Origin: Coleofasciculus sp. FACHB-T130
GTDB taxonomy: Bacteria; Cyanobacteriota; Cyanobacteriia; Cyanobacteriales; FACHB-T130
Length of the DNA: 64,000 bases
Assembly (NCBI RefSeq): GCF_014695375.1
Contig: NZ_JACJOG010000028.1
Span: forward strand, 1 to 64,000
Reading direction: 5' to 3'
The notes beneath the pieces are model-generated. The model made no database searches. It worked only from the letters and a program-made list of their open reading frames with translations, and had not been told where the DNA came from. The position numbers and the translations under genes are program-made. Below are positions 34,164-53,357 of this stretch, in pieces (positions within the stretch are counted from its first letter, which is position 1; the number at the start of each line of letters is the position of its first letter).

Positions 34164-36383
34164 TTATAGCCAGAATTGGCGATCGCCTTCCATCACACTA
34201 GGACGAATACCTTGTAAACGCAGATAAGCCATGCGGTCAGATCCGTACAGCGGCATAGGCAAGCGAGGCTCTTTTAACGCTCCATGATGCAGGAGTGTCA
34301 GTTTTAAAGTAGTTTCCACAATCTGTTCAATTGAGGCTTGGTGTCCTTCTTGATGAACTGTCAAACGTAGGGGACGAGCCAAACCGACTTTCTCTGAAAC
34401 TTTAGTTGTTACCAGAATTGCTTCCCGATGCGATAAGCGAAGTGCTAAACCTTGTGATGGTGCCATCACCTCTTTCTGATTGATATTGTAAAGTCGAGGA
34501 ACACCAGATTTTTTACACTCTACCAAGATAAAATTAGAGCCAATTGCTTCAGCACGTTTTACTAAATAATCGACTTCTTTGCCAACAAAGGAGCCATCGC
34601 GGTAAATTAGGACAGTTTTATTTTTTAATTTAGCTGCTGGTAACAATCGCTCTAGCAGGCGGGGCGGTATTTCTTCACCTTCAACTAGATCATCTTCCAG
34701 TTGGTAGCGAATAAATTCCCCTCGTTTACCATACAAACGCACACTCGCACAAGCATTCATCGTCCCTGATTGCGTTGGCTTTTTTTTGATACTTCTAGAA
34801 ATATCTAAACCAATGAAATAATCAGCAACCTCTAAAGGTTCAGCCAAAATAAAGGGTAAATTACCTAACTTTGCCAGAATACCTGGAATCACCTGATTTA
34901 AGACATACTGATAGTTATTAGAATTACTCAAAGTATCGTCATAAATTATTTGACTGGCAATCTGACGGCGGAGCAGCTGCGAGTAGATTTGAAAATAAAA
35001 ACTTCCCTCATCTTTGTAATCTGAAGCGCGATCGCTCTGGGGTAAAAATGTCAAAACAATATCATGTGGTATATCAATTAATTCATTAACAGCTTTCTCA
35101 ACTGCTGCTCTTGCATCAGCTACACTCAAGTTATTGACTGACAAACCTTTCCTGGTAATCACTTCACTTTTAAATCCATAGCTTTTCAGACGTTGCTTAA
35201 CCTGCTCCAGAAACCGATCTACCTTTAAATCGCCAAGCTTGAGTGCTGCAATATAAATTGTTTTTGATTTATCTTGATAATCATTGTGACGGTGATAAAC
35301 ACCACCTCTTAATAGTCCTTTAAGAATTTCTCCTCTTTTACCAGTAACGCCATTACCAAAAATTAGAGTAATTTGTTCTAGCGGAACTTCAGGTTTCCAG
35401 AATAAATTTGGATGCTGACTGCTATTAACACCACGTTCTAGTTGAAATCCATAAGCTGCTAAAGCACTACTCGCTATTTGCTTATAGGAAGCCACAAGTT
35501 GTGTTCTATCTTTATGTGTAATTTTAGTTGCTTTGAGTAGATCCCCATAATCCACCTCAAATTGGTCAGCCGTTTCAGAGGTAACGCATGGACGTAAAGC
35601 CGCCATAGCATAGTGAAACTGCTTTGGATTTTTACCAAATTTTACAGCCACAACAGGTTGATTGTTTGGGGCTTCACGTAGTGCTTGCTTACTGGTTGAA
35701 CCAGTCGCTTTCTCAAGCAGTTCTTCTCTGTGTTCTTCCATAGTTCCGACAAGGCCGATAATTGTGGCTTTACCGCCCCGTTCAATCTCTTGAACTTTCA
35801 AACCGATTAAAAGTTGTTCAGGGTTTTGCCGATAGGGATGATTTTCGTAGAAATCTGCCAAATTTTCCCGAAAGACAATACGGCTGCAAACTGTTAAACC
35901 AAGCGCAGGCTGTAACTCACCTTGCAATTCGATAGTTTCTGCCCAAAAATCCGGCTCTCTCCTGACTTCAACTCCGTTATCAGACAAAGCAACTAAATAG
36001 TCAAATTTAGTTTTATTCAACACCTGAACAGCTAACTGGGAAAGAATCGAGGGCGTTAGCTGTGGCTGACGTACCCATTGAAACGACAAGAAGCGATCGC
36101 TAAAATCATCTACTTCATCTTGAATATTTTTCAGCGCATCCCGCAACTCATCTTGGCTTGGTAGTTGTCTATTAGATACCGCCAAAACCCAAAAATAAGG
36201 CTTTTGCCAGATAACAACAGTATCAGGTAGCTTTCGACTAAAATGGTAGCTTAAGCGGTTGCCATCCTTACGCTCTACTTCAGGAGTCAATCGAAAACAC
36301 ATTAACTTGAGTTGTGAGGTTTTTAGCGGAAAAACTTCACTAAAAGATGTGTAACTGTGGGTAGATGCAATAGTATTAGTCAT
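34164..36383 (-). CDS. Long-A prokaryotic Argonaute nuclease
   Basis: Guide-directed nuclease of the PIWI superfamily, likely an anti-plasmid/anti-phage enzyme using small DNA or RNA guides. At 739 aa it has the size of the characterised Synechococcus elongatus Argonaute. Visible order: N domain and linker, PAZ-like middle from about 165 to 290, MID at about 430-515 (QIASQIIYDD and ILAKLGNLPF, the 5'-phosphate pocket), PIWI from about 520. The catalytic tetrad looks complete: Asp527 (FIGLDISRS), a glutamate finger in EDDLVEGEEIPP, Asp596 (IYRDGSFVG) and Asp716 (YGSDRMAYL). The ATG at 36383 overlaps the nuclease stop (ATGA), implying translational coupling. Guide type is not deducible. Confidence 0.93.
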   Translation of the reverse strand: MTNTIASTHSYTSFSEVFPLKTSQLKLMCFRLTPEVERKDGNRLSYHFSRKLPDTVVIWQKPYFWVLAVSNRQLPSQDELRDALKNIQDEVDDFSDRFLSFQWVRQPQLTPSILSQLAVQVLNKTKFDYLVALSDNGVEVRREPDFWAETIELQGELQPALGLTVCSRIVFRENLADFYENHPYRQNPEQLLIGLKVQEIERGGKATIIGLVGTMEEHREELLEKATGSTSKQALREAPNNQPVVAVKFGKNPKQFHYAMAALRPCVTSETADQFEVDYGDLLKATKITHKDRTQLVASYKQIASSALAAYGFQLERGVNSSQHPNLFWKPEVPLEQITLIFGNGVTGKRGEILKGLLRGGVYHRHNDYQDKSKTIYIAALKLGDLKVDRFLEQVKQRLKSYGFKSEVITRKGLSVNNLSVADARAAVEKAVNELIDIPHDIVLTFLPQSDRASDYKDEGSFYFQIYSQLLRRQIASQIIYDDTLSNSNNYQYVLNQVIPGILAKLGNLPFILAEPLEVADYFIGLDISRSIKKKPTQSGTMNACASVRLYGKRGEFIRYQLEDDLVEGEEIPPRLLERLLPAAKLKNKTVLIYRDGSFVGKEVDYLVKRAEAIGSNFILVECKKSGVPRLYNINQKEVMAPSQGLALRLSHREAILVTTKVSEKVGLARPLRLTVHQEGHQASIEQIVETTLKLTLLHHGALKEPRLPMPLYGSDRMAYLRLQGIRPSVMEGDRQFWL

Positions 36384-37201
36384 GCAGAAACCTCAGAAAC
36401 AGAAAATTTACAAATTGAGTTGAATTGGCAGTTACGACAATTAAAGCCAGGATTGGCTGGAAAGATTTGGGCAAAGTTAGAAGGGTTTTCCTTGTAACGG
36501 CGTAACTCTTTCTGATGTTGTTCAGCTATGCGTACCAACTCAATCTGAATTGCATTGAGCTGGGCATCTGTGGCAGTAATACGGTCAGACCACTTGTTAG
36601 TTTCCAAGTTATAGAATGAAGCAACAGCTTTTTGTTGAGGGTAGAGATAGGTAGCTGCCAAAAGGTAAACAAATGCTTGTCGTCTGTCAAAATCAGATTT
36701 GCCTGTTTTGAAATCTAAAATGTGTAGCTTACCGTCTAAATCAACAAAGATGCAGTCAATAGCCGCAAATAAGTTGAAAAAATAGTTGCCATTACGAATA
36801 AGAATTGGTTCTGGAATACCCTCATCTCCTCGGCTAAGTTTGATGATATTTTTCCCAGCCAGAATAGGATTTTTGTAGTAGTTTTGCAGAATTTGAATAA
36901 CTCGCTGCTGAACTTCAGATGGCTCTTTGCTTAATTGCAGAATCTCTGCCATTCGCTCCACACCATTAGATGGTTGTAACAGCTCTATATCCTGATGAAA
37001 CTCGTAAACCGCCTTCTGTGCCAGCAAACCAATATGCTGAGGTGTAGTGTCTTGCTCCAAAAGTGCTTTCACCAGTGGTTCTTTCTTTCGCGCTCTGGCA
37101 AAACCTCGCTTCATGTCACAGTGCCAGTGTTCTTGCCCCACAGATGGGGCGAACTGTGACCAAATGTTAAAACTCACATACGGTCGCCAAGGTGTTCCCA
37201 T
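36380..37201 (-). CDS. Cas4/AddB-like PD-(D/E)XK nuclease with Fe-S cysteines
   Basis: RecB-family nuclease of 273 aa. The active site reads AAIDCIF (Asp149), then LHILDFKTGK (Asp163-x-Lys165) and QAFVYLL (Gln175, QxxxY motif). Cys28 near the start plus Cys255, Cys258 and Cys264 at the end (FNCRNCQFNSICKF) form the 1+3 cysteine pattern of Cas4 and AddB [4Fe-4S] clusters. Start ATG 37201 has GGGAG 9 nt upstream and lies 4 nt after the preceding stop; the frame is open to 37258. Such nucleases are known neighbours of long Argonautes and may make or trim guide-source DNA ends; the role is inference. Confidence 0.88.
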   Translation of the reverse strand: MGTPWRPYVSFNIWSQFAPSVGQEHWHCDMKRGFARARKKEPLVKALLEQDTTPQHIGLLAQKAVYEFHQDIELLQPSNGVERMAEILQLSKEPSEVQQRVIQILQNYYKNPILAGKNIIKLSRGDEGIPEPILIRNGNYFFNLFAAIDCIFVDLDGKLHILDFKTGKSDFDRRQAFVYLLAATYLYPQQKAVASFYNLETNKWSDRITATDAQLNAIQIELVRIAEQHQKELRRYKENPSNFAQIFPANPGFNCRNCQFNSICKFSVSEVSA

Positions 37202-37205
37202 TGGT

Positions 37206-37823
37206 TTAAACTCCCAAACTAGATAACTGCAAATCTGTTTTTGGCTGCTTCCAACCATGCTGAGCCGCTACTTTTTTTAGGACAGATTTGATAGTTTTTG
37301 GGGAAGCAGAAGACATCAAGATACTCGGATAAACTGCCGTCCCCCACTTGGGATGCTCTAGTACACGACAGTTGTTGTGAATTACTGGAAAGTCCAACAG
37401 AGCTTTCACCGCAGCTGTGTCATCGTGGGGGATTTCACCTATGCGTGAAAGCAACGGATAGCCAGTGCGGGGGTCAATCAAGTCTGTCAACAATCCGCGA
37501 TCGCGTAGATCAAATGCCACATCAAAGCCAAAGCGCATGAACTTCTCCCGAAGCCGCTCTTTTTCCCTCTCGACATGATCTGTGCTTTCCGCCAAATAGT
37601 ATCGAGATTGCTGCAAGACAACCACAACCCACAAAACAGGCAAATTCCAATCTGGGATAACTCGCTCCAAGTTTTGAACCATGAACGGACTGGGCTGATG
37701 AGTGGAAATCTGAACTCCCTGTCCCGTCTGCGTGACTTGATGGATGATACTGCCTTGCTGACCAGTGTTCTGCGGCTCCAAATTATGTGCTTTATATTCA
37801 GCTTTTTTTCTAGCGTAGACCAT
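37206..37823 (-). CDS. MMADHC-family protein, first gene of the Argonaute operon
   Basis: Member of the family annotated as methylmalonic aciduria and homocystinuria type D protein, in humans a cobalamin-trafficking chaperone with a nitroreductase-like fold. I recognise it from VQISTHQPSPFMVQNLERVIPDW, FGFDVAFDLRDRGLLTDLIDP and GEIPHDDTAAVKALLDFPVI. The first 25 residues are a charged extension, so the true start may be internal. About 205 aa, no membrane segment. It precedes the nuclease by 4 nt and is the leading gene of the Argonaute operon. Its job there is unknown. Confidence 0.75.
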   Translation of the reverse strand: MVYARKKAEYKAHNLEPQNTGQQGSIIHQVTQTGQGVQISTHQPSPFMVQNLERVIPDWNLPVLWVVVVLQQSRYYLAESTDHVEREKERLREKFMRFGFDVAFDLRDRGLLTDLIDPRTGYPLLSRIGEIPHDDTAAVKALLDFPVIHNNCRVLEHPKWGTAVYPSILMSSASPKTIKSVLKKVAAQHGWKQPKTDLQLSSLGV

Positions 37824-37955
37824 ATATAGCGTTTTAAAAAGTTGTTTTTTTATTCAACCACATACATAGTAGCAGCGTGTTGTTTTTTTCGTCAACAAAA
37901 GTTGATTTTTTCGCCAATCCTTAGTAAGATTCGTTAGTAAGTAAGGGAAAAAGAC
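37824..37955. promoter_or_regulatory. Divergent promoter with three candidate operators
   Basis: Between the Argonaute operon and the XRE regulator. Two 18-bp inverted repeats share GTTGTTTTTTT and CAAC ends: GTTGTTTTTTTATTCAAC (37841-37858) and GTTGTTTTTTTCGTCAAC (37879-37896). A third, GTTGATTTTTTCGCCAAT (37901-37918), keeps the left half and CAA. They are the obvious candidate binding sites for the adjacent XRE protein and could control both directions. Confidence 0.65.
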
Positions 37956-38306
37956 GTGGCTCAGAGTTTTGGTCAGCTTATCCGTCAAGCCCGTAAGGAT
38001 AAGGGATACAGTCAGCGTGACCTAGCGAAGCTAATAGAGCTAGATTTCACCTACCTGTCTAAATTAGAAAATGATCGCGCAGACTATGCCCCCAAAGAGG
38101 ATGTCATTCGGTCGCTGGCACGTAATCTAGATTTGGACGAAGAGGAGTTGATTTTCCTTGCGGGTCGTATCCCTCAGCGCGACGAGGATTTTCTCAAGAA
38201 AAATTATCAAGCAATGCCTGCTTTGTTCCGTCGAATGCAGGAAAATCCTGATTTTGCCAACAAAGTCTTTCGAGAAGCTACACAACCAGAAAATGGAGAG
38301 AAGTAA
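37956..38306 (+). CDS. XRE-family transcriptional repressor
   Basis: A 116-aa DNA-binding protein. The helix-turn-helix is at about residues 6-60: LIRQARKDKGYSQRDLAKLIELDFTYLSKLEND, with a further helical stretch (RSLARNLDLDEEELIFLAGRIPQ). The C-terminal part contains FLKKNYQAMPALFRRMQENPDFA. Start GTG 37956 is preceded by AAGGGA. It is followed after 2 nt by an ImmA/IrrE protease gene, the pairing typical of ImmR/ImmA of mobile elements, in which the protease cleaves the repressor. Confidence 0.88.
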   Translation: MAQSFGQLIRQARKDKGYSQRDLAKLIELDFTYLSKLENDRADYAPKEDVIRSLARNLDLDEEELIFLAGRIPQRDEDFLKKNYQAMPALFRRMQENPDFANKVFREATQPENGEK

Positions 38307-38308
38307 GG

Positions 38309-38971
38309 TTGAGTATAATCAAGCCCTATCGCTACATTAAGAAAGAAGAAATTGAGCATCTAGCTAATCACCTGCTTAGCCAGATGCAACAAAATCCTAA
38401 GTACACTCCTACATGGCCTTTTGATGCTACTCGTGTAGCGGACTTTCTCGATATAGGTGTGTTCTGGGATAAAATACCCCCTGACGAGAAAGGATCAATA
38501 GCAGCTATGATTCTGCCCGTAGAGCGTCAAATTGTGATTAAGGAAGATATTCCAGGGCTACGGGGAGGCTTTGGGCAATCAACAATTGCTCATGAAATTG
38601 GACATTTATTACTTCATATTGATAAAAATACAGTTGATAAATTTGTAGAAAGGCTAGAGCAGGGTATTGAGATAGATATGCAGCCTTTCTTATGTCGTAG
38701 TGTTAGCGGTCAACTCGAAAAAATTGAGTGGCAAGCTCAGTATTTTGCTAGTTGCTTACTAATGCCTCGGCATATCTTGGGAGAAGTCCAAAAGGGACGT
38801 GATTTAACTAGGGAATCTCACCTTGATGCAATGGCACATGAACTTGGAGTAACAAAACGCAATCTGAAACATCGGTTAAAAGATATTAGCTGGATTCATA
38901 TTCCTGAGCCTTCTAAGACAATTTATCTGGGTGAGGCTGCGCCAAGTAGGAATAAACGGGCGATTGGGTAG
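38309..38971 (+). CDS. ImmA/IrrE-family metalloprotease
   Basis: Zinc-dependent endopeptidase of 220 aa whose best-known relatives cleave XRE-type repressors (ImmA on ImmR, IrrE/PprI on DdrO after DNA damage). The HExxH zincin motif is HEIGH at residues 95-99 and the third ligand is probably Glu140 in KIEWQAQYFASCLLMPR. Start TTG 38309 lies 2 nt after the regulator stop, with AAGG just upstream. The expected target is the adjacent repressor, giving a stress- or invasion-triggered switch for the divergent Argonaute operon. Confidence 0.88.
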   Translation: MSIIKPYRYIKKEEIEHLANHLLSQMQQNPKYTPTWPFDATRVADFLDIGVFWDKIPPDEKGSIAAMILPVERQIVIKEDIPGLRGGFGQSTIAHEIGHLLLHIDKNTVDKFVERLEQGIEIDMQPFLCRSVSGQLEKIEWQAQYFASCLLMPRHILGEVQKGRDLTRESHLDAMAHELGVTKRNLKHRLKDISWIHIPEPSKTIYLGEAAPSRNKRAIG

Positions 38972-39002
38972 GGAGCGATCGCCCCACCCAATCGGTTTTT
39001 TT
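38961..39002 (+). terminator. Intrinsic terminator at the end of the immA-like gene
   Basis: CGATTGGGT (38961-38969) pairs with ACCCAATCG (38986-38994), the loop holding a HIP1 site, and a run of seven T follows. The left arm overlaps the last codons of the protease gene. Confidence 0.85.
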
Positions 39003-39020
39003 ACCCAGCGATCGCTTTAA

Positions 39021-39227
39021 TTAATCCAGCTTCAGGGAATTCACTGGCACCTCATCCCAAGAATCAACCGTTCGCAATCTGGCGATCCAACCGGACTCCT
39101 TTTGGAAATCGGTTAAATTTTGCTGGTAGGACTCATGACAATCTTTTGCCTGCGCTTCATCACAACAGGCAATACAGGCATGGATCATCCCAGACGGATC
39201 GATCTGTTCGTTTACCCAAATCGTCAT
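39021..39227 (-). CDS. Small conserved cyanobacterial protein
   Basis: A 68-aa protein of unknown function with IWVNEQIDPSGMIHACIACC, a Cys pair, and TVDSWDEVPVNSLKL at the end; I recognise this from cyanobacterial genomes as a conserved small protein without an assigned role. Start ATG 39227 has GGGAG about 8 nt upstream, so the upstream open frame (to 39269) is not needed. It reads toward the ImmA/IrrE gene and is separated from it by the terminator. Confidence 0.65.
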   Translation of the reverse strand: MTIWVNEQIDPSGMIHACIACCDEAQAKDCHESYQQNLTDFQKESGWIARLRTVDSWDEVPVNSLKLD

Positions 39228-39763
39228 AGGGCATTCTCCCTGAATTTTAAATGCATAGACTGCTTGCAACTCGACAAAAACGCTTACCTCTGGGCTGCGA
39301 TCGCGTTACCGAAGCGAGGCGTTAGCCTAGCGCTGACTTGTCAGTTCGCGCTGGGAAAGAGCAATCTGTTGATTGGTGCTGATTTAATACTTATACCAAG
39401 TTGCATTGTCACATCCTTCAAATCCAATGGCAACGCCAAGGTGTTTTACATTTGTTGGCTCTCTAGCGCTAAGGAATCGACCCGCTTCGATCCCCACACC
39501 CTCCACTAAAGATATAGAACAGATGGTGAAAACCCGGAGAAAATCGGGAATTCTAAGAAGGGTACTGATGCAAACTCTAATCATTGCAGGTCATCCTTGT
39601 CGGCGATCGCTTAATTCTTGAGTTAGCGAGAGCTAAAACTAAGGGATGACAAGGCTTTGAGCCAATAGAAGCACTAGAGTTGAGACCGAACTTTCGTAAA
39701 GCTGTCGATCGGTTCAGCGATAAAAGGCAGCATAACCCCAGTTAAGTCAAAAAAATAGTTTCT
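39228..39763. other. 536-bp intergenic region
   Basis: Contains a GC-rich stretch near 39298-39345 with the cyanobacterial dispersed motif GCGAGGCGTTAGCCTAGCGC, and a HIP1 site at 39601-39608. The other frames here are unsupported by any family resemblance. The promoter for the following binding-protein operon should lie in the last 100-200 bp. Confidence 0.4.
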
Positions 39764-40759
39764 ATGAAATCTCGACTTTTCCGCTTCGTGTCTCTTTTTT
39801 TGCTCAGTATTGTGCTGATCGCAGCCTGCAATAGCACGACGGTGACTTCCCAAAAAGAGACTCAGCCCCTTACCGTCGGCTACAATTTGTGGCCTGGGTT
39901 GTTCCCGATCGCGATCGCTCAAGAAAAAGAATTCTTCACGGCTCAAGGGGTCAAAGTCAAACCCGTCTATGTCCAAAACTTTCTAGAATCGGTGTCTGAA
40001 TTCAGTGCTGGACAATATGATGGAGTTGCCATCACAGTAAGTAGCTTGATGAGCATCATTGAGAAAAACCCGGATTTACAGATTGCGATGGCAACTGATG
40101 AATCGGCTGGTTCTGACTCAATAGTAGTTCGCCCAGAGGTTAAAAGTGTCGCTGACTTGAAAGGCAAGCGCCTCGGAGTCAGGTTAGGTGATGGAGAATT
40201 ATTTGTCAGCGAAATGCTCCAGAAACATGGTTTGACTAGCGATAATTTGACCCTAGTCAACGTAGAAGGAGAAGCGGTTCCAGCACGTTTTAAGAGCGGG
40301 GATATTCAAGCGGGACATACTTGGGAACCGTACTTATCTGAAGTAACCAAATCTGGAGGGCGAGTATTATTCACCAGTAAGGACACACCCGGCTTAATTT
40401 CGAGTGTAATCGTGTTTCGCTCCTCAGTAGTACGCGATCGCCCAAAAGACATTCAAGCATTTATTCGCGCCTGGTTTCAAGCACAAGATTACTGGCAGGC
40501 AAATCCCGAAGAAAGTAAAGCACTGATTGCGAAAACGCTCTCCATCAAACCTGAAGAAATTTCCACTGAGGGTGTCAAGTTGTACACCTTAAAAGACAAC
40601 TTAAAAGCATTTACTCCTGGTTCTACAACCGAGTCGTTGTACCATACCGCCAAATTGTACGCCGACTTCTATATTCGCACCGGAGGATTAAGCACCGCGC
40701 CAGATATTCAAAAAATGATTAATCCTTCTTTTGTGCAGATGTCGCAGGCAGGAAATTAA
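39764..40759 (+). CDS. NMT1/ThiY-like solute-binding lipoprotein, copy 1
   Basis: Periplasmic type II binding protein of the NMT1/THI5/SsuA group (331 aa), anchored by a lipobox IVLIAACNST near residue 24. The ligand-binding start is TVGYNLWPGLFPIAIAQEKEFF, followed by SVADLKGKRLGVRLGDG and the conserved tail GSTTESLYHTAKLYADFY and GGLSTAPDIQKMI. It is the first of three close paralogues in tandem; no permease or ATPase gene adjoins. Ligands of this group include pyrimidine precursors, sulfonates and nitrate-like ions; the ligand here is unknown. Confidence 0.88.
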   Translation: MKSRLFRFVSLFLLSIVLIAACNSTTVTSQKETQPLTVGYNLWPGLFPIAIAQEKEFFTAQGVKVKPVYVQNFLESVSEFSAGQYDGVAITVSSLMSIIEKNPDLQIAMATDESAGSDSIVVRPEVKSVADLKGKRLGVRLGDGELFVSEMLQKHGLTSDNLTLVNVEGEAVPARFKSGDIQAGHTWEPYLSEVTKSGGRVLFTSKDTPGLISSVIVFRSSVVRDRPKDIQAFIRAWFQAQDYWQANPEESKALIAKTLSIKPEEISTEGVKLYTLKDNLKAFTPGSTTESLYHTAKLYADFYIRTGGLSTAPDIQKMINPSFVQMSQAGN

Positions 40760-40809
40760 CGAGAAAAAAAGCGTTATTCCATGCAGTTAAACATCAACAG
40801 TTTTTCAAG

Positions 40810-41811
40810 ATGAAATCTCGATTTCTCCGCTTTGCGTCTCTTTTTTTGCTCAGCCTTTTCCTGGTTACAGCCTGCAATGGCAGAACCTTTATAACCTCTA
40901 AACCTGAGCTTCCACCACTGCGAATTGCCTACAATCTGTGGCCTGGATATTTCCCAATGGAGATTGCTTCAGAACAAGGATTTTTCGCAGAACAGGGGGT
41001 GGAAGTTGAACCTGTGTATTCAGAAAACTATTTAGGAGTTGTTTCTGATTTTAGTGCAGGTAAATATGATGGCATCATCGTAACATTGGGTGGTGTGATG
41101 AGCATCATTGGGAAAAACCCAGATATCCACATTGTCTTGGAAACCGATCAATCGGCTGGTGCTGATACCGTAGTGGTGCAACGCGATATTAAAAGTGTAG
41201 CTGACTTGAAGGGCAAGCGACTCGGCGTGAAGTTAGGCGACTACGGAGAATTGTTTGTTGTCAAGATGCTGGAGAGCAATGGTCTTACTACCGATGACGT
41301 GACGCTAGTCGATATAGAAGGGGAAGCAATTCCAGCACACATAAAAAGCGGTGATATTCAAGCCGGACAAACTTGGTATCCCTACACATTAGAGGCAGTG
41401 AAAGCCGGAGCGCAGGTACTATTTACCAGTAAGCAAACACCTAGGTTGATTCCGAATGTCATCTTGTTTCGCAGCAATGTAATACGCGATCGCCCTGGAC
41501 AGATAAAAGCATTTGTCCGAGCTTGGTTCCAAGCCCAAGATTACTGGAAAGCCAACCCAGAAGCAAGCAAATCACTGATTGCTAAGCGGCTGAAGATTAA
41601 ACCGGAGAGCGTTTCAACCGATAACATTCAGCTGTCCACCTTAAAAGAAAACTTAAAAGCGTTTACTCCAGGTTCCACAGAAGAGTCGTTGTACCATACC
41701 GCCAAATTGTACGCCGATTTCTCGATTCGCACTGGAGGATTAACCGCTGCGCCAGATATTCAAAAACTGATCGATCCGTCTTTCGTACAGCAGTTGCAGC
41801 CAGGAAGTTGA
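40810..41811 (+). CDS. NMT1/ThiY-like solute-binding lipoprotein, copy 2
   Basis: Second paralogue (333 aa), starting with KSRFLRFASLFLLSLFLVTACNG: lipobox Cys at about residue 22. IAYNLWPGYFPMEIASEQGFF and SVADLKGKRLGVKLGDYGE parallel copy 1, and the tail GSTEESLYHTAKLYADFS is almost identical. Copies differ most in the pocket-lining middle (e.g. copy 2 YSENYLGVVSDFSAGKYDG). It lies 50 bp after copy 1 and 34 bp before copy 3, so all three are probably one transcript. Confidence 0.88.
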   Translation: MKSRFLRFASLFLLSLFLVTACNGRTFITSKPELPPLRIAYNLWPGYFPMEIASEQGFFAEQGVEVEPVYSENYLGVVSDFSAGKYDGIIVTLGGVMSIIGKNPDIHIVLETDQSAGADTVVVQRDIKSVADLKGKRLGVKLGDYGELFVVKMLESNGLTTDDVTLVDIEGEAIPAHIKSGDIQAGQTWYPYTLEAVKAGAQVLFTSKQTPRLIPNVILFRSNVIRDRPGQIKAFVRAWFQAQDYWKANPEASKSLIAKRLKIKPESVSTDNIQLSTLKENLKAFTPGSTEESLYHTAKLYADFSIRTGGLTAAPDIQKLIDPSFVQQLQPGS

Positions 41812-41845
41812 CCGTTTTCAGTCACACACATCAACAGGTTTTAGC

Positions 41846-42847
41846 ATGAAATCTCGATTGCTACGCTTTGTATCTCTTGTATTACTCAGCATTGTGCTAA
41901 TCACCGCCTGCAATGGCACGACAACCGTAACTTCCAGCCCACAGTCTTTGCCTCTTAGGGTCAGCTATAATCTTTGGGCTGGACAGTTTCCGATGGCGAT
42001 CGCCCAAGAAAAAGGATTCTTCCAAGCGCAGGGTGTTAAAGTCGAACCCATTTTTTCAGAAAACTATCTCCTACCCCTGTCTAACTTCAGTGCTAATAAA
42101 AATGATGGGGTTGCGCTGCCATTAGGTAGCGTTATGAGTAGGCTTGGGCAAAACCCAGATGCAAAAATTGTTTTAGTCACCGATCAATCAGCGGGTGCTG
42201 ACGCAATGGTAGCTCAGCGCCATATAAAAAGCGTGGCTGATTTGAAGGGTAAGCGGATCGGCACTAAGTTAAATGATTTTGGAGAACTGTTTGTCACTAA
42301 GATACTAGAAACGAAAGGTCTTTCTACTCAAGATGTCAGCTTAGTCAATATAGAAGCGGAAGCAATTCCAGCTTTCTTAAAAAGTGGTGAAATTCAAGCA
42401 GGACAAACCTGGGGACCCCATTTGTCTCAAGCAGTCAAATCTGGGGCTAAAGTGCTATTCACCAGTAAGCAGACTCCTGGGTTAATTCCAGATGTCATCG
42501 TGTTTCACAGCAATGTGCTACGCGATCGCCCTCAAGATATAAAGGCATTTATTCGCGCTTGGTTCCAAGCCCAAGACTACTGGAAAGCGAATCCAGAAGA
42601 AAGCAAAGCAATAATTGCCAAAACCCTCAATATCAAACCTGAAATTATTTCAACAGATGGCATCCAGTTGTCTAATTTGCAAGACAACTTAAAGGCATTT
42701 ACTCCAGGTTCAACAACAGAGTCGCTGTATCATACAGCCAAATTGTACGCCGACTTTTATACTCGTACCGGAGGGCTAAGCGCTGCGCCGGATATTCAAA
42801 AACTAATCGATCCGTCCTTTGTGCAGCAGTTACAAAAGGTAAATTGA
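41846..42847 (+). CDS. NMT1/ThiY-like solute-binding lipoprotein, copy 3
   Basis: Third paralogue (333 aa) with lipobox IVLITACNG, VSYNLWAGQFPMAIAQEKGFF, SVADLKGKRIGTKLNDFGE and GSTTESLYHTAKLYADFY. The pocket region differs again (SENYLLPLSNFSANKNDG). Its TGA (42845-42847) overlaps the possible TTG start of the sensor kinase, so binding protein and kinase are translationally coupled. This strongly suggests that the binding proteins present ligand to the kinase rather than to a transporter. Confidence 0.88.
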   Translation: MKSRLLRFVSLVLLSIVLITACNGTTTVTSSPQSLPLRVSYNLWAGQFPMAIAQEKGFFQAQGVKVEPIFSENYLLPLSNFSANKNDGVALPLGSVMSRLGQNPDAKIVLVTDQSAGADAMVAQRHIKSVADLKGKRIGTKLNDFGELFVTKILETKGLSTQDVSLVNIEAEAIPAFLKSGEIQAGQTWGPHLSQAVKSGAKVLFTSKQTPGLIPDVIVFHSNVLRDRPQDIKAFIRAWFQAQDYWKANPEESKAIIAKTLNIKPEIISTDGIQLSNLQDNLKAFTPGSTTESLYHTAKLYADFYTRTGGLSAAPDIQKLIDPSFVQQLQKVN

Positions 42848-45471
42848 CTGTGAAACAGCTCCAACTTTATACCCTACGCACTAAGCTGATTTTTTCTTTC
42901 TTGGGTGTGGCACTCCTCCCCTTAGCATTACTAGCCTTCTTGAATCAGCGAGCCACACAAAAGACGCTGACGAACAATGCTAACCAAACCCTCTTAACAT
43001 CTGCTTCTCAAACTGCCCTGAGTATAGATGCTTTTATAAACTCGAATCTGGATGCTGTCCGAGTTGAAGCTCAGTTGCCAGTCTTCGCCAAGTACTTAAG
43101 TTTACCTGCTAACCAGAGACAAAGTATCGCTTCAGAAGTCGAGGGCGCTTTACGTTCGCTCAGCCGTAAAGATACTTTGAATATCTCGTCCTACGCGCTG
43201 CTCGATAGTCAGGGGCGAGATGTAATTGATACCTATACACCAGATATCGGTACAGATAAATCTGACCAGAATTACTTTCAGCGACCGTTTAAAACTGGCT
43301 TACCCTATGTCTCGCCCATCGTGTTTTCTCCAAGTACTAATGAGATCGGTTTGTACTTCAGTAGTCCGGTACGAAATGCGTCGGGAAATACTATCGGTGT
43401 CTTACGTATCCGTTATAACGCTGCTGCTGTCCAGCGATTGGTTAGTCAAAATACCGACCTAGTGAGAGGAAGCGCTTCCTTTGCGATTTTGCTAGACGAA
43501 AACCATATTCGTTTAGCTCACGGGAACTCACCTGAGTTAAATTTTAAATCGGTTACACCGCTCCCACCGGCTAAAGTGAAGGCTCTGCAAGCAGAAGGAC
43601 GGTTGCCCAAGGGGAAAACGGCAGACTTTTCGACAAATTTGCCTGATTTTGAGCAAGGTCTAGATAACGCTGCAACATCCCCTTACTTTACAACCGCCTT
43701 ATCCTCTACAAACAACGAGCCGAACGCAGCAGCAGTTACCAAGCTAAAGACGCGACCGTGGTTTGTGGTTTTTGTCCAACCGAAAGCGGTATTTCTAGCG
43801 CCTATCGAAGCCCAAGCCCGCGACACGCTGTTACTGGCTGCGATTATTGCAGGTGTAGTCATTATCGCGGCGATTACGATCGGAGAACTACTGGCTAAGC
43901 CACTGATTAATCTCGCTGGAACAGTGACTCAATTCACTGCTGGCAACCTCAATGCTCGTACTTCTATCCAATCAAAGGATGAAATTGGGGTGCTAGCGTT
44001 GAGTTTCAATGGGATGGCAGAACAAGTCGGTAAATTGCTTCAAGGCCTAGAAGAGCGTACCCGCGAACTGGAAGTTAGTCAGCACGTTACGGTTGCCGTC
44101 AGCGAGCTGTCGAAAGCGATTATAGACCCGGAAAAGCTGTTGCGCGAAGCGATCGCCCTAATGCAGAATCGCTTCGGCTTGCACTACGTGCAAATTTATC
44201 TGTTAGATCAAACCACGAATCAACTCATCCGGCGGGCTGATTCTGGCAATCAGGGTATGCTTGGGCATGATGAAAGCGCCTGTCTGTCTCTTGACGATCG
44301 CAGCTTAGTCGCCCTTGCTGCCCGAAAGCAGCAAACGATCTGGGTGGATAAACAGGACAGTGCAGGGCTAGCAGGAGACTTGAAACCCATCCAAATGGGT
44401 TCTTCCGCAGTGGTGCCCTTAGTCGCCCGTGGGGCGCTACTAGGAGTGCTGGACATTCAAGACAAGGAAAGCGATCGCTTCAGTCAAACGGATCTAGAGA
44501 CGTTCAACACCCTCGCCGGACAAATCGCCACGGCTTTAGAAAATGCCCGCTTGTTTGAAGAAATTCAAAAGGCTGAAACCCAATACCGAGACAAAGCTCA
44601 AGAGTTACAACAAACTCTATCTGAATTGAGACAAACTCAAACTCAATTAATTCAAACTGAAAAAATGTCTAGTTTGGGTCAACTGGTGGCTGGAGTTGCA
44701 CATGAAATTAACAATCCAGTCAACTTCATTTATGGCAACATCACTCCTGCCAATGAATATCTGGAAGATTTGCTCAAACTCTTAAAGTTGTACCAACAAT
44801 GCTACCCCAATCCCACCCCGGAAATTCAAGACTATATCGAAGAAGTCGAACTCGACTTCCTGCTCCTTGATTTTCAGAAAATTCTATCTTCCATGAAGTT
44901 TGGAGCCGAACGGATTCGTCAAATTGTTCTATCTCTAAGAAACTTCTCCCGTTTAGATGAAGCGGAGATGAAAGCCGTTGACATTCATGAGGGTCTTGAG
45001 AATACGCTAGTAATTTTACAGAATCAATTAAAAGATAAGCCGGGACATCCGGAGATTCAGGTGATTAAAGAGTATGGCAACTTACCTTTAGTAGAATGCT
45101 ATGCCGGACAACTGAATCAAGTGTTTATGAATTTACTTACAAATGCAATTGATTCTCTCGATGAGTTTAATCATAAACGCTCGATCGAAGAAATTAAAGG
45201 CAATCCCGCTACCATCTTAATTCGCACCAAAGTCGCAGGGAACAATCAAGTAGAAATCCGAATAATTGACAATGGTTCAGGGATTTCAACTGAGGTTCAG
45301 TCAAGACTTTTCGATCCTTTCTTCACAACGAAAAACGTTGGCAAAGGGACTGGGCTGGGTCTAGCGATTAGCTACCAAATTGTAACCGAAAAACATGGGG
45401 GACAGTTGGAGTGTACTTCAGCACCCGGTCAAGGGGCTGAGTTTGCTATCAAGATTCCAATTAGAGTTTAA
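42844..45471 (+). CDS. dCache-HAMP-GAF sensor histidine kinase
   Basis: Membrane sensor kinase (875 aa). Helix at 15-34; an extracytoplasmic double-Cache region about 35-325 (QNYFQRPFKTGLPYVSPIVF); second helix about 328-350; HAMP about 350-402; GAF about 425-570; a coiled coil; then HisKA with His620 in [19 protein letters not shown] and a HATPase domain ([29 protein letters not shown]). It has no receiver domain and no adjacent response regulator. Start may be TTG 42844 or GTG 42850. Position after three binding proteins suggests it senses their ligand. Confidence 0.88.
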   Translation: MTVKQLQLYTLRTKLIFSFLGVALLPLALLAFLNQRATQKTLTNNANQTLLTSASQTALSIDAFINSNLDAVRVEAQLPVFAKYLSLPANQRQSIASEVEGALRSLSRKDTLNISSYALLDSQGRDVIDTYTPDIGTDKSDQNYFQRPFKTGLPYVSPIVFSPSTNEIGLYFSSPVRNASGNTIGVLRIRYNAAAVQRLVSQNTDLVRGSASFAILLDENHIRLAHGNSPELNFKSVTPLPPAKVKALQAEGRLPKGKTADFSTNLPDFEQGLDNAATSPYFTTALSSTNNEPNAAAVTKLKTRPWFVVFVQPKAVFLAPIEAQARDTLLLAAIIAGVVIIAAITIGELLAKPLINLAGTVTQFTAGNLNARTSIQSKDEIGVLALSFNGMAEQVGKLLQGLEERTRELEVSQHVTVAVSELSKAIIDPEKLLREAIALMQNRFGLHYVQIYLLDQTTNQLIRRADSGNQGMLGHDESACLSLDDRSLVALAARKQQTIWVDKQDSAGLAGDLKPIQMGSSAVVPLVARGALLGVLDIQDKESDRFSQTDLETFNTLAGQIATALENARLFEEIQKAETQYRDKAQELQQTLSELRQTQTQLIQTEKMSSLGQLVAGVAHEINNPVNFIYGNITPANEYLEDLLKLLKLYQQCYPNPTPEIQDYIEEVELDFLLLDFQKILSSMKFGAERIRQIVLSLRNFSRLDEAEMKAVDIHEGLENTLVILQNQLKDKPGHPEIQVIKEYGNLPLVECYAGQLNQVFMNLLTNAIDSLDEFNHKRSIEEIKGNPATILIRTKVAGNNQVEIRIIDNGSGISTEVQSRLFDPFFTTKNVGKGTGLGLAISYQIVTEKHGGQLECTSAPGQGAEFAIKIPIRV

Positions 45472-45855
45472 GCTAACAAATCTTCATCAAGCGCGATCGC
45501 ACTGAGGGATTTTAGACCTGACCGATACCACGACCCCTAACTCGATAATCCTCAGCCCTAAGCTGTTCAGGAGAAATTAGAAGGCTCAAGATGCGTTTAG
45601 GGAGGCGAGAAAGTTAGAAACCTTAGCTGGATAGAATTTTAGCAACTCATTTTCTAAAAAATCCCTAAATCTACAGCATTATTTTAAAACCCGATTTCAA
45701 ACTTGCTCGAAAACATATATATAGCAATCCTATTTTAGTTGTGAGACAAACCTTCAGATCCTGACTTCTTTCTCGAAGTCGGGAATCGCACCTTCACGAA
45801 TCATTTCAGATTGGTATAGAAACTAATTTTAAAAAAAAGTTCCATATTTTCACGT
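45472..45855. other. Intergenic region with repeat copy 1
   Basis: 384 bp between the two kinases. It holds one copy of a dispersed repeat (45721-45819) and about 250 bp upstream of it with one HIP1 site near 45494 and no recognised gene. Confidence 0.45.
45721..45819. repeat. Dispersed repeat, copy 1
   Basis: Starts ATAGCAATCCTATTT and ends with TATAG, with an internal hairpin GACTTCTTTCTCGAAGTC. It matches 48746-48847 in order and spacing: ATAGCAATCCTATTT, TTCAGA, GACTT...GAAGTCGGG, CGCC/GCAC-CTTTA/CTTCA, GAATCATTT. The two copies bracket the second kinase gene. Confidence 0.7.
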
Positions 45856-48762
45856 ATGGCTGAACTTAGTCAGTACACCGAAAATAGATACAGTGCGGAA
45901 AAAGGCACAAATATTATAAGCGTAGTGGATGAAAAAATGACCATCAGTAAAAATACGCAAGTTTTAAAGCCAGAATTACAGTCAGAATTAGAGCGGGAAG
46001 GATTGCTGCACCGAATCACTAACCGGATTCGTCAATCCTTGGAATTACAAGAAATTTTAATCGCAACGGTGGCAGAAGTCAGTTCGTTACTAGAAGCAGA
46101 CCGAGTCATGGTCTATCGGTTTCATGCTGATGAAAGTGGAGAAGTGATTGCCGAATTTATTTATAAAAATCGCCTTCCGTCTTTAAAAGGTTTGAACTTT
46201 CCAGCGGATGACATTCCTCCCCAAGCACGCGAACTCTATCAGAAAGTGCGTCTGCGTTCGATTGTGAATGTTGCGTCAGGACTCATTGGTTTATCGCTAA
46301 TGGATTCTCCAGAAACCGGAGAATCCCTAGAAACCAGAAAGATCCACTATCGCCCTATAGACCCTTGCCATGTGGCATATCTCAAAGCAATGGGCGTGCA
46401 GTCTTCTCTGGTGGTGCCGATTCTGCATGGCAATCGCTTGTGGGGGCTTTTAGTCGGTCACTACTCGCAACCGCAAGTAATCTCAGAACGGGAACTGGAA
46501 ATTGTCCAGATGGTAGCCGATCAAGTGTCGATTGCGATCGCTCAATCTACTTTACTCACCCAAACCCGCGAAAAAGCTCAGCGGGAAGTCACGCTTAACC
46601 GTGTTGCTACCCTGCTGCATACACTCCCTACCATTGAGCTGCAATCCGCCCTGGAGGAAACCGTTAGCGCGCTGCAAGGTTCTGGCGGCAGACTGTACAT
46701 CGCCCCAGAAACTACTGGCTTGTCAGCGATAGTGTACACCTGTGGCGATCAATTGAAGCTCGTAGAACCGGGAGTGGTAGCAGTACCTGCCTCATCCGTT
46801 CTAATTGAGCAGCATCCTCTGTGGCAAGAATGGTTAAAAGGCGGAGCAAATTTAAACCCTGTCGCTACCGCAAATACTAGGGGTAGTAGTGGCATCATTG
46901 CGATCGCTGACTTGTATAAACAAACGTATTTACAATCGATTGAAACTGTATTTCAATCTACTTTGATTCGGGGCGTACTGATTGTACCCCTCCAACACCG
47001 TCAACAGTTGGTCGGATACTTGACAATTTTTCGAGATGAAATTGACACAGAAACCTTATGGGCTGGGCATTTTGACCCGGATGCGCGACAAGTTCATCCC
47101 CGGAAATCTTTTGAACTTTGGCGACAGCTAAAAAGAGGCCAATCGCGCCAATGGACTCCGGAAGAGATTGAACTCGCTGATACTTTAGGCGATTGCTTCT
47201 CAATGGCGATTGAGCAGTATGGACTGTACCAAAAGGTGCAGCGTCTGAATGCCAACCTCGATTGTCAAGTCCAAGAGCGTACAGTCAAGTTACAACAATC
47301 TTTGGAGTGGGCAAGCGTTCTTAAGCAAGTCATCGACCAAATCCGCAGCACTTTGGAGCTAAAAACAATCCTGCAAACCATCGTGCGCGAAGTCCGAAAC
47401 CTGTTAGATACAGATCGAGTGATCGTTTACCAGTTCACCCGGCGTTGGCAAGGCCAGGTGGTTGTCGAAGAGGTCACTGGCAAAACGAAATCGATTCTGG
47501 GGCAGGTATATGACGAGAACTGCTTTCCCTTAGAGTACGCAATCTTATACCAGGGGGGACGGGTTCGGGCAATGAACGACGTGCATCAAGCTTCTTTGCA
47601 AACTTGTCATGTCGAATTCTTGGAACAGATTCAGGTGAAAGCCAATTTAGTCGTCCCGATTCGCAGAGGGGAGCAACTGTGGGGGCTACTGGTTGCCCAT
47701 GAGTGTCATGCGCCAAGAGTTTGGAAGGCGGAGGAAGTCGATCTGCTACAACAACTTGCCGATCAAGCTGCGATCGCGATTCAGCAAGCCGAACTCTACC
47801 AACAGCAAGCGGAATTCCTCGCGCAAACCCAGCAGCAAGCAGAACAACTCTCTAGTGCCCTCCAAGAGTTACAGAAAACCCAAAGCCAGCTAATTCAAAC
47901 CGAAAAAATGTCGAGTTTGGGTCAACTGGTTGCCGGTGTCGCTCACGAAATTAATAATCCGGTTAATTTTATCTACGGCAATATCAGCCACGTTGATGAG
48001 TATACCCAAGATATGCTCAAACTCATGGAACTCTACCAAAGCCATTACCCGAATCCCCATCCTGAAATTGTGGATCGAGCAGAGGCGATTGACATCGAGT
48101 TCCTGACTTCGGATCTTCCGCAGATGCTCTCATCAATGAAGGTTGGAGCTGATCGCATCCGCCAGATCGTTCTGTCTTTACGCAATTTCTCCCGGCTGGA
48201 TGAGGCTGAGCGGAAACCTGTCGATATCCACACGGGCATCGACAGCACTCTGTTAATCTTGCAACATCGACTCAAAGCCAAGCCAGACCATGCCGAGATC
48301 GACGTGGTGAAAGAGTATGGAGACTTACCGCCTATCGAGTGCTACGCCGGTCAGATGAATCAAGTTTTTATGAACGTGATCGGCAACGCCATTGACGCTC
48401 TAGAGCAACGCGATGAAACGCGATCGCTGGAGGAAATTAAAAACTTACCCAGTCAGATTACCATTCGTACTTTTCTGATGCAGGACAACCCAGCTGGTGT
48501 CCCCCGCGTTGTTATTCAGATTCGTGACAATGGCCCTGGCATGAGTGCAGGCGTGCAGTGCCAAGTTTTCGATCCCTTTTTCACCACCAAGCCGGTTGGG
48601 AAAGGAACGGGTCTGGGACTTTCCATTAGCTACCAGATTGTGGTAGAAAAACACGGCGGTTCCTTTAAATGTATGTCTCAACCCGGTCAGGGTACTGAGT
48701 TCTGGATAGAAATTCCTCTGAATCGCCAGTTAGCACAAAGCTGCTATAGCAATCCTATTTGA
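45856..48762 (+). CDS. Bilin-type GAF photosensory histidine kinase
   Basis: A 968-aa soluble sensor kinase. GAF1 (about 62-235) has the phytochrome-like [14 protein letters not shown] and Cys171 in [13 protein letters not shown], the position that binds bilin. A second GAF-like region lies at 245-455. GAF3 (about 490-648) is cyanobacteriochrome-like: [25 protein letters not shown] with Cys584-His585, plus Cys556 (ENCFP) near the DXCF position. Then a coiled coil, HisKA with His697, and HATPase ([13 protein letters not shown]). Two light-sensing domains in one kinase are likely. Kinase core closely resembles the upstream kinase. The final SCYSNPI is encoded by the flanking repeat. Confidence 0.88.
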
Positions 48763-48847
48763 GTTTTAAGATGCCAGCGGTTCAGACCTCCGACTTTTCC
48801 AAGAAGTCGGGGATCTCGCCTTTAGGAATCATTTAGGAGCGCTATAG
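48746..48847. repeat. Dispersed repeat, copy 2, overlapping the kinase 3' end
   Basis: Second copy of the element at 45721-45819; its first bases supply the kinase's last codons and stop. It has the same internal stem (GACTTTTCCAAGAAGTC). Confidence 0.7.
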
Positions 48848-48863
48848 AACGCCTTGTACTCGG

Positions 48864-48900
48864 AAACCTCCTTTCCTTGCAGGGAAGGAGGTTTGGTTTT
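48864..48900 (+). terminator. Intrinsic terminator after the photosensory kinase
   Basis: AAACCTCCTTTCC (48864-48876), loop TTGCA, GGGAAGGAGGTTT (48882-48894), then GGTTTTT. One wobble in the stem. Confidence 0.75.
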
Positions 48901-48977
48901 TCAAGTGAAAAATCTGAATTTTCCCGACATCCTCAGCATCGGTTAAGAAAAAATTAAGCTAGAATTAATAAACAATT

Positions 48978-49005
48978 ATTGATATAAATATAAGTTAATA
49001 TCAAT
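48978..49005. promoter_or_regulatory. Candidate ArsR-family operator
   Basis: ATTGATAT (48978-48985) and its exact reverse complement ATATCAAT (48998-49005), 12 nt apart, lie 51 nt before the ArsR-like start codon. The symmetry and AT content fit ArsR/SmtB operators, suggesting autoregulation. Confidence 0.45.
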
Positions 49006-49056
49006 CTCGATCCAGGGCAAGCCTGGGTTGGTTCCCAACTTCACACAGGTGAATCC

Positions 49057-49371
49057 ATGAGTACCCAAAAAGTCTCATCGCAGTCCTTTTGTGCCCAAAA
49101 ACTGAAAACTTTGGCAGATTCAACGCGGCTTGAGGTTTTAGAACTGCTGATGAGTGGCCCTAAGCACGTTGGCGAGATGAATGCGGTGCTGGGGTTGCAA
49201 CAGAGTTTGCTATCGCATCATCTAAAAGTTTTGCGAGAAGAGGGTTTTGTGACGGCGACGCGAGATGGCAAGGCGGTGCTTTATCAGCTAGATCCTGCAA
49301 TCCAGAGGACAAATGCTGATCGGGCGATTGACTTGGGATGTTGCCTGGTTTCGTTTGATTCCAACACATAA
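49057..49371 (+). CDS. ArsR/SmtB-family transcriptional regulator
   Basis: Winged-helix repressor of 104 aa. KLKTLADSTRLEVLELLMSGPKHVGEM and LLSHHLKVLREEGFVTATRDGKAVLYQL form the DNA-binding domain. Possible metal or metalloid ligands are Cys12 near the start and the GCC pair near residue 94 (DLGCCLVSF), but the classic ELCVCDL motif is absent. It lies 21 bp before pstS, so it may regulate phosphate uptake, perhaps in response to arsenate-type stress; that link is inference. Confidence 0.85.
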   Translation: MSTQKVSSQSFCAQKLKTLADSTRLEVLELLMSGPKHVGEMNAVLGLQQSLLSHHLKVLREEGFVTATRDGKAVLYQLDPAIQRTNADRAIDLGCCLVSFDSNT

Positions 49372-49392
49372 AAAACTTCAATTACATAACTG

Positions 49393-50247
49393 ATGAAGAA
49401 TCTAAGAATGCTTGCGCCGCTTTCTCTAGGGTTGGCTGCCTGCTTTTGGCTGCAATCTTGCGGGAAGCCTCCAGAAGGGGCAACCCAATCATCCGATAAG
49501 TTACAAGGCAAGCTGGTTTTGACGGGATCGAGTACGGTAGCACCTCTGGCGGCTGAGATGGCCAAGCGCTATGAAACTCAACATCTGGGAGTCCGGATTG
49601 ACGTGCAAACAGGTGGGTCTTCGCGGGGAGTCGCAGATGCCCGTCAGGGGGTGGCAGATATTGGGATGGTTTCCCGAAGTCTCAAAGACAGCGAGAAGGA
49701 TTTGCAAGCTTTTACCATTGCTAACGATGGCGTCTCGGTCATTCTTAATCAAGAGAATCCAGTTAAAAATCTGACGGACAAGCAAATTGTCGATATCTAC
49801 ACCGACAAAATCAATAATTGGAAACAAGTCGGCGGGAAAGATGCCCCAATTACGGTGGTCAATAAAGCTGAGGGTCGATCCACGCTGGAACTGTTTGCCG
49901 ACCACTTCAAATTAAAGACAACCGATATTCGTGCCGATGTGGTGATTGGCGATAACGAACAAGGAATCAAAACCGTAGCAGGGAATCCCAACGCGATCGC
50001 TTATGTCTCCATTGGTTCTGGCGAATATGGTGTCACTCACAATACTCCGATCAAATTGTTGCCAGTCGAAGGGGTAGACGCCTCCATCGCCAACGTCAGC
50101 AACGGTAAATTTCCGCTTTCTCGTCCACTCAATTTAGTGACGAAAACTACACCCACCGGATTGCAAAAAGAATTTATTGATTTTGCCCGTTCTAAAGATG
50201 TGCAAGACATTGTGAAGGAGCAGTATTTTGTCCCAGTCGCGAAATGA
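49393..50247 (+). CDS. pstS: Phosphate-binding lipoprotein PstS
   Basis: Periplasmic phosphate-binding component of the high-affinity Pst transporter. Signal peptide with lipobox LQSCGK; LVLTGSSTVAPLAAEMAKRYE and VQTGGSSRGVADARQGVADIGMVSR are the PstS phosphate-binding strings, and VNKAEGRSTLELF and AGNPNAIAYVSIGSGE follow. About 284 aa. The gene overlaps pstC by 20 bp. Pst operons are normally induced by phosphate starvation through a PhoB/SphR-type regulator; I do not see a clear Pho box. Confidence 0.95.
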   Translation: MKNLRMLAPLSLGLAACFWLQSCGKPPEGATQSSDKLQGKLVLTGSSTVAPLAAEMAKRYETQHLGVRIDVQTGGSSRGVADARQGVADIGMVSRSLKDSEKDLQAFTIANDGVSVILNQENPVKNLTDKQIVDIYTDKINNWKQVGGKDAPITVVNKAEGRSTLELFADHFKLKTTDIRADVVIGDNEQGIKTVAGNPNAIAYVSIGSGEYGVTHNTPIKLLPVEGVDASIANVSNGKFPLSRPLNLVTKTTPTGLQKEFIDFARSKDVQDIVKEQYFVPVAK

Positions 50248-51082
50248 AGCCATCCTCGTCTGGATGTTGCGGGGAATGGCGATTATTTCGGGCGCGATCG
50301 CTCTTTTAATTCTGCTATTCCTCATCTGGGAAACCTTGCCCATCCTGCAAAATATTGGGCTGACACGTTTCTTCAACGACCCCTCCTGGCATCCCGCTAG
50401 CGAAGAATTTAACCTAATGCCGATGTTGTGTGGGTCGCTATTTGTGACGGCGGGATCTGTGCTAGTCGCAACACCTCTGGGTATTCTCTCCGCAGTTTTC
50501 TGCCACTATTACGCACCTCCCGCTTTAGCCACAATTTACCGACGCCTGATTGAGCTTTTAGCAGGGATTCCCTCAGTCGTTTATGGCTTTTGGGGTTTAG
50601 TCGTACTGGTGCCAATTATTGGGCGGATGCACCCACCGGGACCAAGTTTATTGGCCGGGATTTTAATCCTAACGCTGATGATTTTGCCTACCATTGCTCT
50701 CGTCGCCGATGCCACCTTTGCCAACGTACCCGCAGATTATCTGCGGGGTGCGGCGGCGCTGGGATTGGGACGCTGGGCAATGGTGCGTGGTGTGGTTTTT
50801 CCAGCAGCAAAATCAGGGCTATTAACGGGGATTATCTTGGAAACGGGACGGGCGATTGGCGAAACAATGGCGGTGTTAATGGTTTGCGGTAACGTCGTGC
50901 AGGTACCAAAGGGTGTATTTGAGCCAGTGCGGACGTTGACAGCAAATATTGCTTTAGAGATGGCTTATGCCGTGGGAAATCACCGCGCCGCCTTGTTTGT
51001 CAGCGGGTTGATATTGATGGCGATGATTGTGGTTTTAGTCGTTGCTGCCGAAATGATTAATCAAGGGCATCTTTATGAGTGA
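50228..51082 (+). CDS. pstC: Phosphate ABC transporter permease PstC
   Basis: Integral membrane permease of the Pst system with six helices. PLGILSAVFCHYYAP, the EAA-like ADYLRGAAALGLGRWAMVRGVVFPAAKSGLLTG and GRAIGETMAVLMVCGN are typical. 284 aa is normal. It overlaps pstS by 20 bp and pstA by 8 bp, indicating coupled translation. Confidence 0.95.
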   Translation: MSQSRNEAILVWMLRGMAIISGAIALLILLFLIWETLPILQNIGLTRFFNDPSWHPASEEFNLMPMLCGSLFVTAGSVLVATPLGILSAVFCHYYAPPALATIYRRLIELLAGIPSVVYGFWGLVVLVPIIGRMHPPGPSLLAGILILTLMILPTIALVADATFANVPADYLRGAAALGLGRWAMVRGVVFPAAKSGLLTGIILETGRAIGETMAVLMVCGNVVQVPKGVFEPVRTLTANIALEMAYAVGNHRAALFVSGLILMAMIVVLVVAAEMINQGHLYE

Positions 51083-51992: not shown

Positions 51993-52052
51993 ACCAAGCT
52001 TACCTCGCGTTCTTTTTTTGCGTACTTCGCGTCTTTACAGTTTAAATTCTTC

Positions 52053-53357
<1,305 letters not shown>

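Follow-up and report, generated by a model that had tools for sequence, protein, structure and literature searches.

A candidate signalling unit of tandem binding lipoproteins and a dCache sensor kinase in Coleofasciculus

Few bacterial sensor kinases have a known signal. A locus in the cyanobacterium Coleofasciculus sp. FACHB-T130, in which three tandem binding-lipoprotein genes precede a sensor kinase gene, raises the question of whether such lipoproteins serve a transporter or act as inputs to the kinase encoded beside them. The window that we analysed is a 64,000-nucleotide stretch (contig NZ_JACJOG010000028.1, positions 1 to 64,000 of the forward strand) of a 6.2 Mb genome in 60 contigs; the nearest named relatives met were the cyanobacteria Trichocoleus sp. 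FACHB-40 and Kastovskya adunca. Sequence comparisons suggest that the array is probably a periplasmic signalling unit in which the lipoproteins act on the co-encoded receptor.

The lipoprotein–kinase array

Four open reading frames (ORFs) lie in succession on the forward strand, at 39764–40759, 40810–41811, 41846–42847 and 42844–45471, and encode proteins of 331, 333, 333 and 875 residues. The first three products are NMT1/SsuA-like lipoproteins (SBP1, SBP2 and SBP3; SBP, substrate-binding protein) of sequence types T1, T2 and T3, respectively. Each exceeds the Pfam cut-off for both NMT1 and NMT1_2 (SBP1, NMT1_2, 1.9e-22; SBP2, NMT1, 9.3e-21; SBP3, NMT1, 4.7e-23), and in each of them residue 22 is a lipobox-like cysteine. 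By ORF and Pfam, the fourth product is a sensor histidine kinase of dCache–HAMP–GAF–HisKA–HATPase_c order. The same-strand ORFs, domain matches and cysteines bear out the initial annotation, which had described three tandem binding lipoproteins followed by a sensor kinase. With gene starts, and hence gaps, taken from the longest ORF, the intergenic gaps are 50, 34 and −4 nucleotides along the array; the proposed overlap of the last lipoprotein gene with the kinase start holds with a TTG start at 42844 and disappears with a GTG six bases downstream.

Within the kinase, dCache_1 (58.7 bits against a cut-off of 45), HAMP, GAF and HATPase_c scored above the Pfam cut-offs and HisKA below; motifs that we take to be the H, N, G1, F and G2 boxes were recognisable, and no receiver domain was detected by Pfam. 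Hydrophobic segments at residues 11–35 and 323–358 enclose a periplasmic dCache region (residues 36–322; 42949–43809, forward strand), the proposed docking site of the lipoproteins. As had been noted at the outset, ORFs and Pfam matches of the window placed no permease or ATPase gene in the cluster. The nearest transporter genes, a PBP_like_2, two BPD_transp_1 and ABC_tran set at 49393–52874 that we read as Pst-like, include their own binding protein.

Pairing with dCache receptors across cyanobacteria

A profile of the lipoproteins matched 47 of 386 genomes in a phylum sample at E 1e-60, and the scores fell into two groups, above 320 bits or between 205 and 236 bits. We collected every listed high-scoring place from the phylum, order and near-relative searches, giving 48 stretches; in many phylum and order genomes just the five best preliminary candidates were scored, making copy numbers there lower bounds. 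A dCache receptor gene followed on the same strand in 43 of the 48, with no ORF of at least 80 residues lying wholly between. The two genes were separated by 9 nucleotides in 17 of the 43 pairs and by −4 nucleotides in 11 (28 together), and the other gaps ranged from 0 to 386 nucleotides. Three of the five stretches lacking a downstream receptor ended at a contig edge (L086, L121 and L134), and the remaining two, both from one genome, are real exceptions. Stretches held one to four lipoprotein genes, 15 of the 48 having at least two that encode 200 residues or more; some copies contained internal stops. Because it recurs across the order, this arrangement is beyond chance. Among 388 genomes of the order sample, the dCache domain (E < 1e-100) was present in 44 and the lipoprotein (E 1e-80) in 42, with both in 41 (Fisher p about 1e-50, uncorrected for kinship). 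The sole genome with the lipoprotein only, G635, has its copies at a contig end.

The enzymes fused to the dCache domain varied. Sorted by best query, the 43 receptors comprised 13 with GGDEF, 10 with a GAF-type kinase core, 9 hybrid kinases, 5 with SpoIIE and 6 with no class; among the last, one was cut off and two (L109 and L114) were Guanylate_cyc by Pfam. Pfam, applied to 20 of the 43, agreed with the query class wherever one had been assigned. Behind one input pair there are thus five predicted output classes: histidine kinase, hybrid kinase, diguanylate cyclase, SpoIIE phosphatase and nucleotide cyclase. Pairwise distances among lipoproteins and among dCache domains were strongly correlated (r = 0.96, 42 pairs; none of 2,000 permutations reached 0.96), compared with r = 0.57 for lipoprotein against receptor tail and r = 0.59 for dCache against its own output tail, with genome kinship contributing to all three values. 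The dCache domain therefore tracks the neighbouring lipoprotein better than the enzyme to which it is fused.

A receptor role that goes beyond mere neighbourhood is suggested by these properties together, because the pair persists through output swaps, diverges in step and lacks a transporter of the fitting type. The lipoprotein genes stay adjacent to the dCache receptor gene, occur and diverge together with the dCache domain and remain with it when outputs are swapped; these observations support well the idea that it is the dCache domain, and not a transporter, that the lipoproteins serve, and the initial annotation was largely right in direction. In the mechanism that we propose, each lipoprotein would close around a small ligand and, once loaded, would dock on the co-encoded kinase at its dCache domain and shift the state of that kinase, with a ligand dependence and sign of response that we infer. 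The signal would reach the catalytic core by way of HAMP and GAF and would then be handed to a response regulator, presumably encoded elsewhere; the lipoproteins would be alternative inputs to a single receptor. A fuller version, which we put forward tentatively and hold at somewhat below even probability, is a plug-in sensing module in which a single dCache receptor reads a chemical mixture because paralogous lipoproteins that differ in ligand compete for it, the input pair being wired to at least five enzymes. With many outputs attached to one lipoprotein–dCache pair, finding a single ligand could account for dozens of cyanobacterial receptors, and arrays of two to four lipoproteins would offer a natural test of multi-input integration by one receptor.

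Ligands and alternative explanations

How many ligands the array reads depends on how its lipoproteins differ. SBP1–SBP3 are 66–67% identical in pairs. When positions identical in all three were counted in 26-residue bins along the mature protein, identity was highest at 261–286 (88%), followed by 209–234 (73%), 105–130 and 183–208 (69% each) and 287–312 (65%); it was 46% at 1–26 and reached its minimum of 35% at 53–78. The earlier description of nearly identical ends around different pockets was thus overstated: part of the C terminus is very similar, but the N terminus is not. Recent gene conversion was considered as the source of the similar ends and rejected, with C-terminal synonymous divergence (dS) of 1.01 for SBP1–SBP3 and 1.38 for SBP2–SBP3. 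Because of these values, the C-terminal similarity appears to have been kept mostly by selection; local conversion is possible in SBP1–SBP2 (dS 0.60) and in a Trichocoleus T1–T4 pair (0.22).

In near relatives the lipoproteins form four types, T1–T4, each a supported clade, with 80–96% identity within and 65–74% between types. Relatives of T1 were found in three other genomes (88–93% identity), of T2 in two (93–96%) and of T3 in two (88–95%). The window carries T1, T2 and T3, genome G389 carries T1, T2, T4 and T3, the genus-mate G388 carries T1 and T4, and the family member G386 had no lipoprotein match at E 1e-80. By these comparisons, the three lipoproteins of the window belong to old, separately conserved types, which suggests that their ligands differ at least in part; that at least two of the three have different ligands seems to us slightly the better bet.

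A receptor-coupled array that reads one ligand or a narrow family, with the copies providing dose, a range of affinities or redundancy, is the strongest alternative, although we consider it somewhat unlikely. Of the 66 positions in pocket-lining loops, 16 were fixed within types and differed between them, compared with 35 of 246 in the rest of the protein, an enrichment that is not significant (p = 0.07) and is approximate, because the loops were picked from a TauA alignment and residues named in an excerpt of PMC6906117. The hinge residue Asp98 is invariant in 53 of 53 aligned proteins, and copy number ranges from one to four, with the genus-mate retaining just two types; all of this would suit a shared ligand. 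Against it stand the age and separate conservation of the types and, at the equivalents of taurine contacts, single loop residues that vary by type. The proposal of interchangeable receptors with multiple inputs is therefore plausible from the types, with weak pocket enrichment. The AlphaFold model of SBP3 (predicted local distance difference test score (pLDDT) 92.4) has TauA and SsuA as its top structural matches, and Asp98 of SBP3 aligns with TauA Glu106, the residue at the taurine amine, loss of which abolished taurine binding (PMC6906117, excerpt). From this invariant residue and its alignment, an amine or a cation would be a weak guess at the ligand.

Direct sensing by the kinase through its dCache domain, with the lipoproteins as co-transcribed scavengers or regulated neighbours that make no contact with it, appears improbable. 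It would agree with structural comparisons: the AlphaFold model of the dCache region (pLDDT 88.8) best matched the sensor domain of DctB (Z 23.6), and the nearest solved relatives, DctB, PctA and Tlp3, take their ligands directly. Searched against PDB sequences, a profile built from the dCache alignment had no match at E 0.01. LuxP–LuxQ offers a further comparison, and LuxQ was not among the best 50 structural matches listed, which excludes nothing. Direct sensing would also agree with three dCache-only genomes (G539, G599 and G626), in which an 843-residue receptor is preceded by response-regulator-like genes and no close lipoprotein adjoins; weaker lipoprotein relatives do occur in these genomes, at unmapped positions. 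However, lipoprotein and dCache persist together across output changes and diverge in step. Moreover, a more remote set of dCache domains (11 matches, from 8 genomes of the order sample) sits downstream of a lipoprotein from another SBP family, intact or fragmented as judged by shared sequence.

The solved relatives and the receptor-only genomes count against a signalling unit of lipoproteins and receptor, as do several other observations. One genome (G008) has two solitary lipoprotein relatives (L044 and L045) and a dCache kinase (L149), all unlinked. Kinship of the genomes inflates both the co-occurrence and the distance correlation. An excerpt of PMC11113362 describes adjacent genes for SBP and kinase with products that failed to interact, and the pocket-loop enrichment falls short of significance.

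Other pairings of binding protein and sensor gene were seen in passing. In the distant dCache hybrid-kinase group (L150–L159), the lipoprotein was SBP_bac_1/SBP_bac_8 in both members tested with Pfam, and several such genes were apparently fragmented. Elsewhere in the Coleofasciculus genome, an NMT1-like and a phosphonate-binding-like protein are encoded directly upstream of HAMP histidine kinases (L011:8035-10814 on contig C52 and L013:4757-7638 on contig C30, respectively), with no permease within the stretches read.

For the transporter question, a single SsuC-like protein was used as permease query at E 1e-10. It matched none of the 48 high-scoring stretches, this being the only permease type screened, and was positive in all six low-scoring, guanidine-type loci mapped, its own locus included. 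The query recovered the Nrt/Cmp-like permeases of this genome (64–68 bits) and missed the Pst-like permeases of the window, 5 kb downstream of the array, so only SsuC-type permeases are excluded; ATPase-like genes lie near some of the 48 stretches. The genome was found to have five SsuC-type permeases (L010, L012, L087, L088 and L089), each near its own NMT1_2 binding protein, and the suggested search for permease partners elsewhere thus turned up no orphan of this type. SBP1–SBP3 scored 134–153 bits, under the NCBIfam SsuA_fam cut-off of 163.5, compared with 230.7 for the binding protein of a guanidine operon, and neither a permease nor an ATPase gene is linked in the cluster; in both respects they differ from binding proteins of ABC (ATP-binding cassette) importers of the SsuA/TauA type. 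That the lipoproteins supply an ABC transporter encoded elsewhere and adjoin the kinase by chance or co-regulation is very improbable: they share the fold of the importer proteins TauA and SsuA, and SBP genes away from transporter genes are noted in an excerpt of PMC9602780, but the occupied SsuC-type permeases, the 48 stretches free of that permease type and the sub-threshold SsuA_fam scores all argue otherwise.

The guanidine operon (contig C35, L010:5148-10478) consists of a Guanidine-I riboswitch, ureohydrolase, HypA, HypB and an ABC importer, a layout that matches the one described for guanidine use in Synechocystis in an excerpt of PMC12186494; the riboswitch was found in both L010 and L058. 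Guanidine was considered as a ligand of the array and rejected, as an Rfam scan of window positions 37500–50500 gave no matches, and hence no guanidine riboswitch there, and the pocket loops are unlike those of the guanidine-operon protein. On contig C5 (L012:3042-5051), a LysR-type regulator and an NMT1_2-like domain are fused in a 669-residue protein; the ABC transporter encoded beside it includes an NMT1-like binding protein.

Around the array, a gene for a 968-residue GAF/PHY kinase begins at 45856; we left it outside the unit because it lies 384 nucleotides past the sensor kinase and is missing from the Trichocoleus stretch. Just upstream of the array is a gene pair for a helix-turn-helix regulator and an M78 peptidase (37956–38971, forward strand). 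Further upstream (34164–37823, reverse strand) are genes for a 739-residue Piwi-domain (Argonaute-like) protein and an adjoining PD-(D/E)XK protein; a third ORF there matches MMADHC.

Comparison with known systems

The nearest transporter-linked homologue met is the binding protein of the cyanobacterial guanidine importer (GdmH operon), present as a single copy in this genome (L010:7704-8723). It shares 40 strongly conserved positions with the receptor-linked lipoproteins, including the hinge Asp98, and departs from them at 36 positions at which the receptor-linked group is conserved; four aligned guanidine-type proteins are 28–32% identical to SBP3. Its neighbours are a permease, an ATPase, ureohydrolase, HypA, HypB and a Guanidine-I riboswitch, whereas the array of the window lacks any guanidine context. 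A docking patch drawn from the 36 positions was considered and rejected: the densest 26-residue stretch (starting at 205–216) held 8 of them, and random placement matched this in 23% of trials.

Kinases, diguanylate cyclases and chemoreceptors that are activated by SBPs are called widespread in excerpts of PMC9602780 and PMC11113362. According to these, in systems of the BctC–BctE type the loaded SBP binds the periplasmic domain of the kinase, and there and in other SBP-activated kinases the SBP gene lies near the kinase gene, as in the array described here. BctC is, however, part of the transporter BctCBA, whereas here no transporter gene is linked and several SBPs accompany a single kinase. 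In arginine sensing by Salmonella, a periplasmic binding protein, ArtI, is likewise needed with a dCache_1 diguanylate cyclase, STM1987; ArtI is a putative arginine-binding protein, and the passage available from that report describes neither direct docking nor tandem arrays (PMC8846402). Among the matches listed from open-licence papers, we found none on a cyanobacterial dCache receptor that is shared by tandem SBPs.

The polyamine sensor NspS–MbaA of Vibrio cholerae, with homologues in Sinorhizobium, resembles the array in that a binding-protein gene adjoins and overlaps a membrane receptor gene; the coding regions overlap, and NspS controls MbaA output (PMC8967002, excerpt). It differs in having, as described there, a single binding protein per receptor, cyclic di-GMP as output and polyamines as ligands, compared with up to four NMT1/SsuA-kind binding proteins and five predicted output classes here. 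The proposed mechanism is therefore of a known kind, and what is new is the presence of several binding proteins per receptor and the re-use of the sensing pair on five outputs.

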